64,000 nucleotides of DNA from Halobacteriales archaeon QS_4_62_28 (lineage in GTDB: Archaea; Halobacteriota; Halobacteria; Halobacteriales; Haloarculaceae), in the NCBI GenBank assembly GCA_003021685.1, contig PXRO01000050.1, positions 62,001 through 126,000 on the forward strand, written 5' to 3'. The translations under genes were made by a program, and so were the position numbers. The notes under the pieces are model-generated. The model saw only the letters and a program-made list of their open reading frames with translations, made no database searches and had not been told where the DNA came from. Positions 4,412 to 42,476 of the stretch are shown here, piece after piece; within the stretch, counting starts at the first letter, position 1; each line of letters opens with the position of its first letter.

Positions 4412-4498
4412 TCATAGTGACTGTTGTAACTGATTACCGGATCGGTCGCACGTCGTCGTACGATCAATCCCGTAAAGACTTACAACAGTCACTATCAC
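4412..4498. repeat. Inverted-repeat element (divergent R1-like)
   Basis: Perfect 16-bp arms ATAGTGACTGTTGTAA (4414-4429) and TTACAACAGTCACTAT (4480-4495), 50-bp spacer. Confidence 0.88.
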
Positions 4499-19819: not shown

Positions 19820-19871
19820 CCGCCACCGGGCCAGGCGTACGTCCACCGGTATAGGGGATTCTTCGAGGAAA

Positions 19872-35575: not shown

Positions 35576-35591
35576 TACTCCCGAGTGTTAC
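35573..35591 (+). repeat. R1 half-site overlapping the stop codon of the 34361-35575 gene
   Basis: TGATACTCCCGAGTGTTAC; 15/19 identical to TGATACTGCCGGCTGTAAC. Confidence 0.65.
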
Positions 35592-35669
35592 ACTGGTGGA
35601 CGTACCGTTTGATATATCTCAGCCGTTATGATCCCCGGTCTGACTGTGTCATTGCGTACGTCTACCAGT
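35592..35669. repeat. R2 hairpin element, 78 bp, copy 1
   Basis: Inverted termini ACTGGTGGACGTAC / GTACGTCTACCAGT (13/14). Confidence 0.85.
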
Positions 35670-36836
35670 AGAGACGTGAGATTTGTAGAGATCGATCAGT
35701 TCCTCGCTCGCTTCTTGCCACGAGTACGACTCCTCGATAGCTTGCCGGTTGTTGGCGGCCATTCGATGCCGTCGCTCAGGCGCAGTGATCAGCTCCTCCA
35801 GCCCACTGGTCAACTGATCCACATCCCCTGGCTCGACGATAATTCCTTGCTCGTCGTCGATCACGTCTGGGATACCTCCAACGTTCGTAGAGATAATAGC
35901 GTTTTCACCAGCCATTCCTTCCAGCATAGCGATTGGAAGTCCCTCGGCATAGGTCGGGAGAACAAAGATCGAACCGTCGCCGAGGAGTGACCGTTTTCGC
36001 TCTTCAGAGATGTACCCGAGGTACTGGACTTCATCGTGTTCCGCCGCAAGCCGCTCAATCCGGCCGGACAGTGGGCCATCGCCAGCTATGGACGCCTCGA
36101 ACGAATCTGGCTGTCGTTCGGACAACTGTTCGAGAGCTGCCGCCAGTTCGCGAACGCCTTTTCTCTCAATGAGATTGGACACAAAGACAATGTGTGGCAC
36201 TGTTTCGTTTTCTTTGACGGGATAGATTTCTGGATCGACCGCGTTCGGGATTATCCGAATCTTCGTCTCGATTCCCCTGGTAGCGAGAATTTCTTCCCAG
36301 TAGTCTGATAAGACAACGATTTCGGTACTCACGGCGAATACGTGGCGCTGAAGCGCTGCGACGACCGTTGATTCTGTCGTTACGAAATCGTCGAACGAGG
36401 AACCATGAATGTGGAGCACGACCGGAACGTCCCACACGTATCTCGCGAACAGAACATACATCGACGAGCGGTAGAACGAATATCGATGTGACGTGTGAAC
36501 GTGAACAATATCCGGCGTCGACTGGAACGGGAACCTGAGCATCGCATACACTCCGATCACGAGTCCTTGCAGAAACCTCAGGGAGCCCGTCTCTACCGGG
36601 GGCATTCCCATGTCATGCGTCGCAATCGAGAGAGAATCGTCTAGCCACTCGACTTGTTTGTCGATGTAGCTGTGGATACCGCCGCCACCAAACGTGCCGA
36701 CAACGAGTACTTCGAGCCCTATCACCGTGCCGGCCGCCGCCTCTGACGAACCGACCGCCTCTGATTGCGCTTCCGTATCAACTGGGCTGGAGGGATCCTC
36801 GGAGGCGGAAGTCGCGTTTGTGTTGATAGAAGTCAT
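35649..36836 (-). CDS. Glycosyltransferase family 4 (GT-B)
   Basis: VVGTFGGGGIHSYIDKQVEWL, PHIVFVSNLIERKGVRELAAAL, FVLPTYAEGLPIAMLEGMAGENAIIST. Confidence 0.93.
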   Translation of the reverse strand: MTSINTNATSASEDPSSPVDTEAQSEAVGSSEAAAGTVIGLEVLVVGTFGGGGIHSYIDKQVEWLDDSLSIATHDMGMPPVETGSLRFLQGLVIGVYAMLRFPFQSTPDIVHVHTSHRYSFYRSSMYVLFARYVWDVPVVLHIHGSSFDDFVTTESTVVAALQRHVFAVSTEIVVLSDYWEEILATRGIETKIRIIPNAVDPEIYPVKENETVPHIVFVSNLIERKGVRELAAALEQLSERQPDSFEASIAGDGPLSGRIERLAAEHDEVQYLGYISEERKRSLLGDGSIFVLPTYAEGLPIAMLEGMAGENAIISTNVGGIPDVIDDEQGIIVEPGDVDQLTSGLEELITAPERRHRMAANNRQAIEESYSWQEASEELIDLYKSHVSTGRRTQ

Positions 36837-37182
36837 CGTATTGTCTCACTGATTCGCATCCAGTTGGTTGTCTGAATTACATCTTTGTTATACGTAACAT
36901 TCTATGAACGTCGGGCAGACGTCTTCCTTTTCCGCTGTTTTGATCGGATAATCGCCTGCACTGTTCCGTACGGTAAAGAGTGTTGCACGGGTATTCGAGT
37001 ACCCGTTATTAAGTGGATTATTACTACGTGCTGTGTCCGGTAACCTAAGAGGCGTGTGGAGACCCACGAAAATTGACAGTGGCATCAGGGGACGGTGTCT
37101 CGAACGGTTGCAAACGTCTGTAATCGCAGTGGGGGGCAACGAAAAGTTGGTCGTCACCGGACGATTCCGGTGGCGGTAATCT

Positions 37183-37785
37183 ATGTGGCCATGGGAGCAC
37201 CTCGCGTTCGGCTATCTGCTGTACAGTGGCTACGTTCGACTCGTGCACACGAAACGGGTCAGGAGCGACGCCGCAATCGCTGCGGCCCTCGGAACGCAGT
37301 TTCCCGATATAATCGATAAACCACTCGCGTGGCACTTCGACGTTCTTCCGGGCGGTGTCTCGATGGCTCACTCGCTGGTGTTTGGAGCGCCGTTGTGTAT
37401 ACTCTGTATTCTCCTTGCACGCAAGTACGGGGCGAAGGCAGCCGGCCCCGCCTTTACTATCGGTTATCTCTCCCACCTGTTGGGGGATATTATCTATCCG
37501 ATTGCCGTCAACGGATTCGACTCTCTGCCGGTGTTTCTACTGTGGCCGCTCATTCCGGGGGCGTTCAGCGGTTCTCGTGGAATGGTCGGGAACGTGGCGT
37601 ATTATTTCGAGAAGTTCACGGTATTCCTCGGAACGCCCCGGGGCCAGCTGTATCTCATGCTGGAACTCCTCTTGTTATCACTTGCCTTCGTCGTCTGGGC
37701 AACGGATGGATTCCCCGGAAGCCGCTGGATCCTGCGACGTATCCGGCCACGTCGGTCGACGCCCGACAGTGACAGCCGTCATTGA
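37183..37785 (+). CDS. Metal-dependent hydrolase-like membrane protein (YdjM/DUF457-type)
   Basis: MWPWEHLAFGYLLYSG, GTQFPDIIDKP, AHSLVFGAPL, GYLSHLLGDI. Confidence 0.8.
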   Translation: MWPWEHLAFGYLLYSGYVRLVHTKRVRSDAAIAAALGTQFPDIIDKPLAWHFDVLPGGVSMAHSLVFGAPLCILCILLARKYGAKAAGPAFTIGYLSHLLGDIIYPIAVNGFDSLPVFLLWPLIPGAFSGSRGMVGNVAYYFEKFTVFLGTPRGQLYLMLELLLLSLAFVVWATDGFPGSRWILRRIRPRRSTPDSDSRH

Positions 37786-37866
37786 TACTGCCGGCTGTAA
37801 CTATTGCAAGAGATTCGCGACCCCGGGCTCGGGACATTCTTCACGGACGGACACCCGGCAGTACGA
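37783..37866. repeat. R1 palindromic element, near full length (84 bp)
   Basis: TGATACTGCCGGCTGTAACTATTGCAAGAGATTCGCGACCCCGGGCTCGGGACATTCTTCACGGACGGACACCCGGCAGTACGA; first TGA is the stop of the 37183-37785 gene. Confidence 0.88.
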
Positions 37867-38057
37867 GCGGTGTATAGATGGTATAACAATACAGTGCCGT
37901 CTTCTCAAACGGACGTAACGACCATACCTATGAGACGCGACACTTCGATAGTGCCTGGCTGGGTCGGGTTAGGACGAGACAGTGATGGGACGAAAACAGA
38001 ACATAAAAACGAGCGTGGCATGGGCGTGACTGCCTGCGCGCGACGGTCGGTAGCCAG

Positions 38058-39314
38058 ATGAAGTCTCACTACGACACACCGGCGTCACAGCGAACAGAGC
38101 AGCCAACAGACATCGACGTAGAGCGGTACGAGTCGATCCTCGAATCCGTACTCGACTACGCGCGCGAGCGATCATACTGTGGCTGGGACTACGGCGACGG
38201 GATGAGCAGCCGGGTCTTGCAGGCCGTCCCCTTCGAGAACAAGTGGCTAAACATCGCGGTCCAGGAACTCGCGAAGCGGCCGCCGATCAACCTCCGGCCG
38301 CTCTTGCTCGTCGAACAGCGTCGCAACTACAAGGGCACCGCTCTGTTCACGATGGCAAACCTCAATGCGGCCCACCTCGACATCGGGCCGACCGACGTGG
38401 ACTACGCCGGGGAGGCCCACGCCCTGGCAGAATGGCTCGTTGAGAACGAGAGTGTCGGCTATCCCGGATTCTGTGGCGGACACAACCATCAGATTCAGTT
38501 GCTCAGCGGGCGTGGCCATCCGAACGACCCGGACGTTGTCTCGACATCATACGCAGTCAAGGCACTGCTCGCCACAGAGGAACTCGACGACTCGTTCCCG
38601 TCGGTCGCAAAGACTGCCGCGAACGTCCTCGAAGAAACCCTCAACTACAGGTCCGTCGACGATGGCGCAATAATAAATTACCACCTCAACCACTCGGACG
38701 ACTCGACCACGATCAACGCCAACGCGCTCGGCGCTCGCCTCCTGACGGACCTCTACGCGCGCTTCGGTCGCGAGGCCGACCGACAGAAGGCCGAGTCGAT
38801 CCTGAACTACGTCGCCAGTCGCCAGACGGACCCGGGCGGGTGGTACTACCGGGACCCGCCGTCGGACTCGCATCTGTCGATGGACAACCACCACAACGCG
38901 TTCATCATCGAGTCCTTCCTCCGGTATCGGGAAGTCTGTGACAGTTCGGCGTTCGAGGACGTACTCGACCTGGCGCTTGATTTCTACCGCAATCAGTTGT
39001 TCAGTTCCGACGGCGCACCGAACTTCGACGAGGAAAACGCCTATCCACGAGACGTCCACGCGGCGGCCAACGGCATCCTCATCTTTACCTACGCGGGCGA
39101 CCACGAGTTCGCGGCACGGATTATCGACTGGACTGTCGAGAACCTCTCTGCGGGTAAGGGGACGTTTTACTTCCGGAAGCAGCGTTTCTACACCAAGCGC
39201 CACATCTTGATGCGATGGTGCCAGGCGTGGATGGCGTTTGCACTCTCAGAGTTCCTGACGAGTCTCGACAGGGACACCGACCGGACCGACCACCGCCTGG
39301 TACGGAGCAACTGA
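38058..39314 (+). CDS. Alpha/alpha-toroid-like protein (terpenoid cyclase/prenyltransferase-like helical repeat), surface-glycan context
   Basis: Repeated helical-hairpin pattern (TSYAVKALLATEEL; NANALGARLLTDLYARFG; NHHNAFIIESFLRYREV); fold inferred by eye. Confidence 0.5.
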   Translation: MKSHYDTPASQRTEQPTDIDVERYESILESVLDYARERSYCGWDYGDGMSSRVLQAVPFENKWLNIAVQELAKRPPINLRPLLLVEQRRNYKGTALFTMANLNAAHLDIGPTDVDYAGEAHALAEWLVENESVGYPGFCGGHNHQIQLLSGRGHPNDPDVVSTSYAVKALLATEELDDSFPSVAKTAANVLEETLNYRSVDDGAIINYHLNHSDDSTTINANALGARLLTDLYARFGREADRQKAESILNYVASRQTDPGGWYYRDPPSDSHLSMDNHHNAFIIESFLRYREVCDSSAFEDVLDLALDFYRNQLFSSDGAPNFDEENAYPRDVHAAANGILIFTYAGDHEFAARIIDWTVENLSAGKGTFYFRKQRFYTKRHILMRWCQAWMAFALSEFLTSLDRDTDRTDHRLVRSN

Positions 39315-39370
39315 TCGAATAGAGGGAGTGTCACTTCTCTCGAAACGGTAGGCAACACCCCCAGCCGCCA

Positions 39371-40411
39371 CTATTTCTTGATCGCGAGAAGCGGATTCTG
39401 GCCGCGGAATCGCTGGTACATCGACGCCAGAACGCTCATACCCGCCTCGGAGTGGGTCGCGCTGTAGTAGGTCTGGAGTTGAGGATTGAACTTCGCCTTG
39501 TACTCGTTGATCCGTTCGTCTTCGGCACCGACGAGGTCGTATGCCGACCGACCACCGTCGATACCGTCCTGCATCACGCGCCAGTCGAGGAGGTCGTTCA
39601 CCGGTAGGTCGATGTCGGTGTCCGTCCGAACACCACCTTGCCAGCGCGAGACAGTCTCGCCGGAGTCGGGCACGAGCATCCCGCCGACGAACTCATCGTC
39701 AACGCGGAAGACGTAGGGTTTGAGCGATCCATCTGGGAGTGCCTCGTACAGATCTGTGACGAAATCCGCCGTGAGTCCATACGAGATGCCCTGGGATTCG
39801 TACCGGTTTCGGACCTGTTCGACGATCAGTTCGATCGCTCGCTGTTTTCCGACCTCGATGGTATAGCTGTCCTCGTCGGCGTTGCGGATGTTGGACCGAC
39901 CGTCGCTGCTGAACCGCATTAGCAGCGACTCGGCGTCGGTATCGAGGTCGACGACGTACGTGTAAGAGGGGTCGACAGACCAGTCGTTCCACTTGAACGG
40001 ACGCACGTCCTCGTACCCACCGTGCATACGAGTGTGAGCATACTTCGGGTTGACCTCATCGGTGAGCCATTCGAGACACTCCTCGATGAACCGTTTCCGC
40101 CGCCGGTCGCGCTTGCGCTGTTTCAGTTTCGACAGGTTCAGCATTGCCGGGCCGAGATAGGACACCCGCATGTTCGGTGGCGGCGAGAACGCCATGCGGA
40201 CCGGTCCTTTTTTCATTTCGAAGAGCGGAAAGATGCCGACTGGCTCCTGTCCCTTGAATCCCATCAGCGGGTGAACCGTCGCGTCCGCATGGTCGGCAAG
40301 CACTCCCAGCGCTTCGAACCGATGAAAGACAGTCCCCTGGTGGGACCGCGACACGTGGCTGTTCCACCCCTCAATATCACTCTCGTCTGCTCGCCGAATC
40401 TCGATACTCAT
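39371..40411 (-). CDS. FemAB/GNAT-type acyltransferase
   Basis: RRADESDIEGWNSHVSRSHQGTVFHRFEAL; central FSSDGRSNIRNADED; AYDLVGAEDERINEYKAKFNPQL. Confidence 0.78.
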   Translation of the reverse strand: MSIEIRRADESDIEGWNSHVSRSHQGTVFHRFEALGVLADHADATVHPLMGFKGQEPVGIFPLFEMKKGPVRMAFSPPPNMRVSYLGPAMLNLSKLKQRKRDRRRKRFIEECLEWLTDEVNPKYAHTRMHGGYEDVRPFKWNDWSVDPSYTYVVDLDTDAESLLMRFSSDGRSNIRNADEDSYTIEVGKQRAIELIVEQVRNRYESQGISYGLTADFVTDLYEALPDGSLKPYVFRVDDEFVGGMLVPDSGETVSRWQGGVRTDTDIDLPVNDLLDWRVMQDGIDGGRSAYDLVGAEDERINEYKAKFNPQLQTYYSATHSEAGMSVLASMYQRFRGQNPLLAIKK

Positions 40412-40582
40412 TACTTTGCACTTGCGTGACCGACATGATTGTTATAGATTAGATACCACTGAGAGGGCAAGTGACCAATTTCTGCTCCACCGATGTATCT
40501 TAAGTACAGTAGCCTGCTGGACAGACGATCACGAGCGTATGAAGGTACTAACAAAGCAAGCAGATGACAATGGCACGATAAC

Positions 40583-42193
40583 ATGGATACGCTGGTAGTT
40601 GGTATCGACGCCGCATGCCGTCCCGTCCTCGACCCCCTGTTCGAAGACGGAACAGTGCCGACGATAGAACGTGTCGTCGAGAGCGGGACCGATGGTGCCC
40701 TCGAATCACAAGTCCCGCCCTGGACCGCCAGCGCGTGGCCGTCGCTGTACACCGGCAAGAATCCCGGTAAACACGGCATCTACGATTTCATTACCTTCGA
40801 GGGATACGACTGGCGGGTCGTCTCGGCGACTGACCTCCGGGAACCGCCGCTGTGGCAACTCCTCGACGATCAGGGATGTTCCAGCGTTGTCGTCAACGCA
40901 CCGGTTACAGCGCCGGTCCGACCGTTCGATGGGGCCCTCGTCCCGGGGTATATGGCACCAGCAGATCCGGACTGTCATCCCAAGGGATTACTCGACGACA
41001 TCCGTGCAGCCATTGGTGCCTACTCCGTCTACCCGGAGCACACGGGCGAGACGGTGCCTATCGACGAAGCGCGCGAGGCATATCGGCGACTCACGTCGAT
41101 GCGGGGCGAGGCGTTTCGCTATCTCGCCGACCGGTTCGACCCCGACTTTGGCTTCCTGCAGTTCCAGCAGACTGACACGCTGTTTCACGAATATCCCGAC
41201 GAACCGGGTCTCATCAGGGACGTGTATGCAGCCGTCGACAGCGAAATGGAGCAGGTGCTGACAGACTGTAGTCCTGACACAGTCTTTCTCGTCAGCGACC
41301 ACGGTATGGGGCCGTACGAGGGTTACGAGGTCCGACCGAACGAGATCCTCCGCCAGGAGGGGTACGTTTCGACGACCCGGTCGGGGACCGGTATGCCGAC
41401 GTGGTCGACAGTGCGTGACTCGCAACTCACTGCCGGCGACGAAGACACCGAACCGACCGCAAGCGCAGTCGAGCGAGCGATGGCCACACTCTCGACGGTC
41501 GGTCTCACGAGCCAACGACTGGGCCGCGTCTGCAGGGCACTCGGCATCGAGGAGACGGTGCGTGACCTCGTCCCGTCGAGCGTCGTCCACGCTGGGACCG
41601 AGCGAGTCGACTTCGCGGGGTCGGACGCGTACGTCCGTTCACGCGTCGAACTCGGTGTCCGGATCAATCTCGACGGTCGCGACCCGGAGGGGACCGTGTC
41701 ACAAGGTGAGTACGAGGGCCTCCGACAGTCGCTGATCGGCCTGCTGGAATCGCTGGAAGCGCCCGACGGGACACCGGTGTTCGAGGAAGTCACGCGGCGC
41801 GAACAGTACTTCCACGGTCCCGCAGCCGACGAGGCCGTGGATATCGTCACCGTTCCCAACGAGTTCGATCAGTTCATCTCCGCGACGGTCGGCACCGAAC
41901 CCTTCGGCGAGCCATCGGAACCCTGGAACCACAAGCGAAACGGAATTATCGCAGCTACGGGCGAAGGCATCGACACCGGTGTCACTCCGGACACGGCCCA
42001 TCTGTTCGATGTCGCGCCGACGGTCCTCGCGACGATGGGCGTCCCCCGCGACGACCGCATGGACGGCCGGGTCCTCCCGTTCGCGACGCCGGTCGGAGAA
42101 GCGCAGTACGATCCTCGCAAAGAGACTGACGTGGAAGCCACGGAGGATGCGGTCGTCCAGGAGCGACTGTCGGATCTGGGCTATCTCGAATGA
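40583..42193 (+). CDS. Type I phosphodiesterase/nucleotide pyrophosphatase-like protein (alkaline phosphatase superfamily)
   Basis: VVGIDAACRPVLDPLFEDGTVPTIERVVE; PPWTASAWPSLYTGKNPGKHGIYDF; FLVSDHGMGP; C-terminus LSDLGYLE. Confidence 0.88.
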   Translation: MDTLVVGIDAACRPVLDPLFEDGTVPTIERVVESGTDGALESQVPPWTASAWPSLYTGKNPGKHGIYDFITFEGYDWRVVSATDLREPPLWQLLDDQGCSSVVVNAPVTAPVRPFDGALVPGYMAPADPDCHPKGLLDDIRAAIGAYSVYPEHTGETVPIDEAREAYRRLTSMRGEAFRYLADRFDPDFGFLQFQQTDTLFHEYPDEPGLIRDVYAAVDSEMEQVLTDCSPDTVFLVSDHGMGPYEGYEVRPNEILRQEGYVSTTRSGTGMPTWSTVRDSQLTAGDEDTEPTASAVERAMATLSTVGLTSQRLGRVCRALGIEETVRDLVPSSVVHAGTERVDFAGSDAYVRSRVELGVRINLDGRDPEGTVSQGEYEGLRQSLIGLLESLEAPDGTPVFEEVTRREQYFHGPAADEAVDIVTVPNEFDQFISATVGTEPFGEPSEPWNHKRNGIIAATGEGIDTGVTPDTAHLFDVAPTVLATMGVPRDDRMDGRVLPFATPVGEAQYDPRKETDVEATEDAVVQERLSDLGYLE

Positions 42194-42209
42194 TACTGTC
42201 GGCTGTCAC
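42191..42209 (+). repeat. R1 half-site overlapping the stop codon of the 40583-42193 gene
   Basis: TGATACTGTCGGCTGTCAC. Confidence 0.85.
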
Positions 42210-42227
42210 CGTCGTCCTCGAAACGAT

Positions 42228-42305
42228 ACCGGTGGACGTGCCGTTTGATACGTCTCAACCGTCACGGTCCCCGGGCTGAACGTATTATTGCGCACGTCCA
42301 CCGAT
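42228..42305. repeat. R2 hairpin element, 78 bp, copy 2
   Basis: ACCGGTGGACGTGC ... GCACGTCCACCGAT; about 61/78 identical to copy 1 at 35592-35669. Confidence 0.85.
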
Positions 42306-42476
42306 ATACGAATCGAAGCGTGAATACATCGAAAACGGTGATATTTGCGAAAAAGACGCAGAAATACACTACAGTAGCATTTGCACGTCTTCACTCACCT
42401 GATCGCGCGACTGCGTATGATTGGGTGAGCAATCGGTTGCAAATGCCACTGTAGCTACGAGACGACGGCGCGGTGA

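Follow-up and report, generated by a model that had tools for sequence, protein, structure and literature searches.

R2, an 80-bp palindromic repeat in a haloarchaeal genome, is probably a miniature inverted-repeat transposable element inserting at TA

Introduction

RUP of Streptococcus pneumoniae, a 107-bp miniature inverted-repeat transposable element (MITE) of IS630-Spn1, is a short, non-coding palindrome with terminal inverted repeats (TIRs) and a TA duplication, which is present in many intergenic copies and also inserts into other mobile elements (PMC2229807). The Correia or NEMIS elements of Neisseria (107–204 bp) are TA-ended MITEs as well, whose transcripts form long stem-loops (PMC10969869, PMC2229807); RNase III processing and promoter roles are known for Correia. 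Among the haloarchaea, the MITEs and SMRs of Haloquadratum walsbyi (HqIRS families) are transposase-free elements of 80–110 bp with TIRs, which are often nested in other mobile elements (PMC3119063), and the MITEs of Halobacterium (ISH2, MITEHsal1/2), which are mobilised in trans, reach around 400–500 bp and show duplications of 6–8 bp for MITEHsal2 and of 10 bp for one ISH2-ISH8A cassette (PMC10264941). Here, we describe R2, a palindromic repeat with two copies in a 64,000-nt stretch of Halobacteriales archaeon QS_4_62_28 (assembly GCA_003021685.1, contig PXRO01000050.1, positions 62,001 to 126,000; this whole stretch is called the window below).

We consider R2 to be a MITE, namely an 80-bp non-coding element which inserts at TA and would be moved by a transposase acting in trans, and we assign this reading a probability of roughly 0.87. 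It is based on the properties of a dispersed family with sharp ends and TA duplication, on mutual insertions with other repeats and on the absence from sister species, as well as on deletion and chimeric derivatives and diverged relatives found throughout the order.

Results

Structure and copy number of R2

An earlier note on this stretch had described a hairpin element with two 78-bp copies of about 78% identity and inverted termini, at 35592–35669 and 42228–42305. This was borne out, as 61 of 78 positions match (78.2%), and comparison with dinucleotide shuffles gave folding z values of −6.0 (+ strand) and −3.7 (− strand) for copy 1 and of −5.4 (+) and −6.2 (−) for copy 2. The true unit comprises 80 bp (35591–35670 and 42227–42306) between TA target-site duplications, which have decayed to GA on one side of each window copy. 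R2 represents one imperfect palindrome over its whole length (TACCGGTGGACGTAM…KTACGTCCACCGGTA), is non-coding and flanked by the duplicated TA, and its TIRs of about 15–17 bp read TACCGGTGGACGTAM inward. Within the alignment of the copies from the same genome, 92% of the outer-stem cells are paired, and an Rfam scan returned no family matching R2.

The genome is available as a 2.64-Mb draft of 57 contigs with about 90% completeness. Searching it with copy 1 by blastn yielded 37 matches, and a search for the 17-base end TATACCGGTGGACGTAC, allowing up to 3 mismatches, gave 132 occurrences, compared to 6 for the reversed control. Copy counts and contexts were taken from the genome stretches around matches, and the fetched loci contained 43 full and 27 partial copies; with a covariance model, about 50 full-length matches were located across the genome, in both orientations. 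Thus, the view of R2 as a two-copy hairpin was correct with respect to the repeated hairpin, but not to its copy number. The full copies share a mean pairwise identity of 87% and a consensus, including the duplicated TA, of TATACCGGTGGACGTACCGTTTGATACGTCTCAGCCGTCACGGTCCCCGGGCTGAATGTATCATTGCGTACGTCCACCGGTATA, with one subfamily carrying A-T at stem pair 17:68. Shortened, chimeric and interrupted copies are also present in the genome, among them internal-deletion derivatives keeping both ends at loci L064 (1999–2028; 30 bp) and L079 (about 2036–2084; about 50 bp). No match for the R2 of this genome was obtained in plasmid and viral collections.

Target site and nested insertions

The similarity among R2 copies breaks off sharply at TATA on both sides, and no target duplications longer than TA were detected above the level of shuffles in 43 flank pairs. 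At locus L026, the arrangement GCCTCA-TA-(R2, 80 bp)-TACTGCC…GGCAGTA-TCA represents an R2 copy nested in the end of R1, a distinct 78-bp palindrome (TACTGYCGG…CCGRCAGTA) with 3-bp TNA duplications (TGA/TGA, TCA/TCA, TTA/TTA). Once the 80 bp of R2 and one TA are taken out, R1 is complete again at 78 bp and is flanked by TCA on either side. In Natronosalvus amylolyticus (genome G237, locus L147), another repeat regains its GGCTACTATAG end (GGC-TA-CTATAG) when the element is removed. These two nested insertions show that TA is the target of R2 and is duplicated on insertion.

All six genomes of the same genus lack R2, and at two loci that were tested, the surrounding genes are syntenic in sister species, with R2 absent there. 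Base-exact empty sites were not recoverable from sister species with their too strongly diverged intergenic DNA, and the comparison is one of presence and absence only, from which we infer that R2 is mobile. Elsewhere in the same family, one to a few copies were found in two genomes, one of them the metagenome-assembled genome SW_9_67_25.

Covariation of the stem within and between genomes

The closest alternative is that R2 is a structured RNA or 3'-end element selected by the host, such as a terminator, an mRNA stabiliser or an RNase substrate, and that its hairpin is kept by selection. The strong fold of both strands agrees with this, and two covarying stem pairs had been put forward as a sign of selection on an RNA or DNA hairpin. 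Both changes are real, but each is private to one of the 42 aligned copies: copy 1 alone has T-A instead of C-G at pair 6:79, and copy 2 alone has G-C instead of A-T at pair 16:69. With the subfamily pair 17:68 set aside, compensated stem cells amounted to 6 versus 3.5 expected (p = 0.12), which is at the level of chance and does not sustain the argument for a selected hairpin from these pairs. Stem changes that affect one side only or break a pair are frequent among the copies of this genome, and it was such uncompensated changes in further copies that the earlier note had named as evidence against its proposal. Conservation is equal in the stem (92.8%) and the interior (92.5%), and the outer stem shows no preference for G-U (17 G-U vs. 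35 A-C cells), leaving strand-specific RNA selection unsupported. Template switching during replication can homogenise palindromes; therefore, compensated pairs alone are no proof of selection.

With a covariance model, which the earlier note had recommended for a search of haloarchaeal genomes, diverged homologues of 77–86 bp, often in multiple copies, were recovered from 14 other of 394 Halobacteriales genomes; the family spans 12 genera in all, belonging to several families. Most of these relatives possess TA-flanked palindromic ends, which vary in sequence (GTGGAC, GTCGAC, TCGGACAG, GCCGAC and others), with the arms complementary within each element. For 48 elements from different genera, collected with the structure-aware model, which favours palindromes, 91.2% of the cells are paired (80.6% in shuffles), 126 cells show double changes (44.8 in shuffles, with 0/500 reaching the observed value), the covariation score reaches 0.316, as against 0.132 for shuffles and no more than 0.073 when the pairings are slid, and pair 27:61 switches from C-G to G-C. 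In most subfamilies, the inner stem is paired as well, by differing sequences (mean fold z −1.5, 32/48 below −1), and this re-forming with other sequences in other genera also speaks for a host-selected RNA. Covariation of the arms across genera is explained as well by paired transposase-binding ends as by a selected hairpin, and a role of the hairpin is possible in view of the conserved, sequence-variable inner stem. In N. amylolyticus, all strong R2-like ends are paired at a distance of 80–83 bp, and its R2 variant matches a plasmid of this species.

Elements of about 98–108 bp with TACTGTCGGACAGAAC ends occur throughout the order, several of them with TNA-type duplications (L227, L228, L238–L240), and are common in family f7 and genome G329 (46 end matches). 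The end motif TACYGTCGGACAG is common to them and the relatives of R2.

Gene context and stop codons

Gene contexts were assigned with a simple codon-bias open reading frame (ORF) caller, not with a published annotation. None of the 43 full copies is located inside a called gene; 17 lie between convergent, 17 between tandem and 8 between divergent genes, and 1 was left unclassed. A position at gene 3' ends, as assumed before, describes R2 only in part. Of the 43 reconstructed insertion sites, 11 hit a stop codon or lie no more than 3 nt away from one, compared to 29 of 469 non-coding TA sites of the window (Fisher p = 1.6e-4; p = 0.02 without divergent regions). Four further reconstructed sites lie within called coding sequence; therefore, some R2 copies may have shortened genes. 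In the case of copy 1, joining the flanks restores the TAA stop of a glycosyltransferase-like gene, and because the element entered this stop, the ORF now ends inside R2 (Table 1). At each end, 38 of 48 elements carry an in-frame TGA as codon 8 (counting from the duplicated TA), and a gene whose TAA or TAG stop is hit is thus extended by only about 7 residues.

The convergent share (17 of 42 classed copies) and the enrichment at stops fit a host-selected 3'-end element, but the placement of R2 is sufficiently accounted for by selection against insertion into coding sequences and promoters, which predicts such an enrichment, and a true preference for gene ends is possible. Moreover, 8 of the 42 copies are divergent, the neighbouring genes are unrelated, and the absence from six sister species, the missing Rfam match and the chance level of compensation within the genome apart from one subfamily pair all speak against a host-selected RNA, which we regard as improbable.

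Table 1. Coordinates of R2 copies and associated features in the window
Feature	Position	Strand	Basis or remark
R2 copy 1 with flanks TA / GA	35589..35672	+	aligned with 42 full copies of the same genome; covariance-model match 87.5 bits
R2 copy 2 with flanks GA / TA	42225..42308	+	alignment within the same genome; covariance-model match 96.3 bits
Left TIR, copy 1	35591..35607	+	consensus TACCGGTGGACGTAM
Right TIR, copy 1	35654..35670	-	consensus TACCGGTGGACGTAM; fold
Left TIR, copy 2	42227..42243	+	consensus TACCGGTGGACGTAM
Right TIR, copy 2	42290..42306	-	consensus TACCGGTGGACGTAM
R2 fragment, single TIR only	19835..19853	.	19/19 identical to R2 end
Glycosyltransferase-like ORF, last codons and stop within R2 copy 1 (…STGRRTQ*)	35649..36836	-	ORF list, empty-site reconstruction
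R1 half-site TACTGTCGGCTGT, joined to TGA stop of upstream ORF	42194..42206	+	separate from R2

Relation to other palindromic repeats

A REP/BIME-like or IS200/IS605-type (PATE) hairpin moved in single-stranded form by a Y1 HUH transposase would share with R2 the palindrome over the whole element, the extragenic location and the high copy number. R2 has true TIRs and a TA duplication, however, while PATEs are devoid of TIRs and leave no duplication (PMC3119063), and we consider this origin very improbable. By the same TIR-type ends and TA duplication, R2 was rejected as a member of both the REP/BIME and the PATE/IS605-derived classes, and by its duplication of TA at L026 and L147 as a member of the Haloquadratum SMRs, which have TIRs without duplication.

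R1 was found at 37786–37863 of the window and at loci L011, L028, L032, L036, L040, L060, L062, L065, L072, L075 and L084. It sits inside R2 at L036 and L040, the reverse of the nesting at L026. Its ends often seem fused to TGA stops because its target is TNA, which often is TGA. Of the R1 half-sites next to the window copies, the one at 35576–35588 is an approximate match only (TACTCCCGAGTGT), and the one beside copy 2 is clear. That R2 is half of a composite R1+R2 3' unit, as the earlier note had proposed, has a practically negligible probability. R1-like sequence does adjoin both window copies, and R1 ends are denser near R2 (3.7 per kb) than in distant intergenic DNA (1.2 per kb), but an R1 end occurs within 60 bp of just 4 of the 43 full copies, most copies stand alone, the duplications differ (TA vs. 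TNA) and each family inserts into the other.

Chimeras combining an R1 end with an R2 end were observed at L066 (2083–2155) and L077 (1964–2039), which suggests recombination between two related families. Two more palindromes adjoin or interrupt R2 copies. R3, of about 82 bp (ATAGTGACTGTTGTAA…TTACAACAGTCACTAT), is present at 4414–4495 of the window, at about 3130 of L067, where it interrupts an R2 copy, and at about 6000 of L011, where it borders one. R4, of about 90 bp (CTACAGTAGCATTTGCA…TGCAAATGCCACTGTAG), lies beside copy 2 at about 42366–42454 and also at L009, L029 and L066; its ends resemble the CTATAGTAG ends of an IS630-like element in genome G205 (L182/L188/L193).

Candidate transposases

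The TA target together with ends starting with TAC favours a transposase of the IS630/Tc1-mariner type for the mobilisation of R2, for which RUP and IS630-Spn1 provide a precedent (PMC2229807). Several observations weigh against R2 being a MITE, most of them concerning this partner. We found no autonomous element with ends matching R2 when searching for DDE_3/IS630 families and TIR patterns in its own genome and in the carrier genomes. In its own genome, IS630 transposases are represented by C-terminal remnants alone, none of which has R2-like ends at its borders, and the IS630-type elements of genomes carrying relatives are likewise without R2-like ends. Transposition was not directly observed, mobility being deduced from sequence comparison, and the interior pairing across subfamilies exceeds the needs of a bare MITE and is not fully explained. 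Because the assembly is an incomplete draft, it may lack insertion sequences that are present in multiple copies, and the failure to find a partner in this genome is therefore a weak negative. Haloquadratum MITEs have also been mobile in a genome that lacks an intact transposase (PMC3119063), and in 2007, most of the bacterial MITEs then accepted had no transposon sharing their ends (PMC2229807). An IS630-like element of genome G205 (L198) carries the end TACTGTCGGCTAAAAG and is flanked by TAA on both sides, like R1; the R1 end shares TACTGTCGGCT with one of its ends. This element may serve as a lead to the partner of R1 and, less directly, of R2.

Discussion

In the proposed mechanism, an IS630/Tc1-mariner-type DDE transposase would act in trans on the two ends of R2 and move the element. 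Both ends would have to fit the same enzyme, so they would change together between hosts. Copies would be tolerated chiefly in intergenic DNA and at the 3' ends of genes, and the TGA at codon 8 from either end would allow a gene hit in its stop codon to terminate after about 7 extra residues. A role of the hairpin for the host, in forming transcript 3' ends or in mRNA stability, is possible, but not required by the data.

A more far-reaching idea, which we regard as unlikely, is that the full-length palindrome is itself the functional, selected part of an element superfamily spanning the haloarchaeal order and adapted to insertion at or next to stop codons. If this were true, the inner stems would be rebuilt in each lineage, the TTGATA…TATCAA motif would provide the TGA at codon 8 from either end, and R2 would become a new gene 3' end, consisting of stop codon and mRNA hairpin, at little cost for the host. 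The question arising is whether MITEs that are palindromic throughout are kept so by the matching of transposase ends or by selection for hairpins at gene 3' ends. The case also calls for caution, since the covariation of inverted-repeat mobile elements can mimic signals of RNA structure. A supposed two-copy RNA hairpin is replaced by a mobile-element family of several haloarchaeal families, with ends, target and duplication defined to the base, and the covariance model supplied is able to find further copies.

We found no description of R2 in the open-access literature; because subscription papers and ISfinder lay outside this search, it may have been named earlier. R2 displays several traits of MITEs, with a length of 80 bp without a transposase gene, TIRs, about 50 dispersed copies and TA duplication, and its TA target and duplication are those of IS630-type (RUP-like) elements. 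The Halobacterium MITEs resemble it as haloarchaeal elements mobilised in trans, as would apply to R2, but differ in size and duplication. Haloquadratum SMRs and MITEs, compared by description only, share its size, TIRs, lack of transposase and nesting, but the SMRs show no target duplication, and the MITEs share the ends of known transposons. Correia elements agree in their TA ends and in the long stem-loop of the transcript, which for R2 is predicted only, and deviate in length, TIR and known functions. RUP is alike in palindrome, TIRs, TA duplication, intergenic copies and insertion into other elements, but has a known IS630 partner with matching ends, another sequence and a host from another domain. 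R2 differs from the RUP, Correia and Haloquadratum elements in its sequence, in its whole-length palindrome across genera and in that no partner was found, and we conclude that it is a new MITE family of the same kind as these elements rather than a new RNA.

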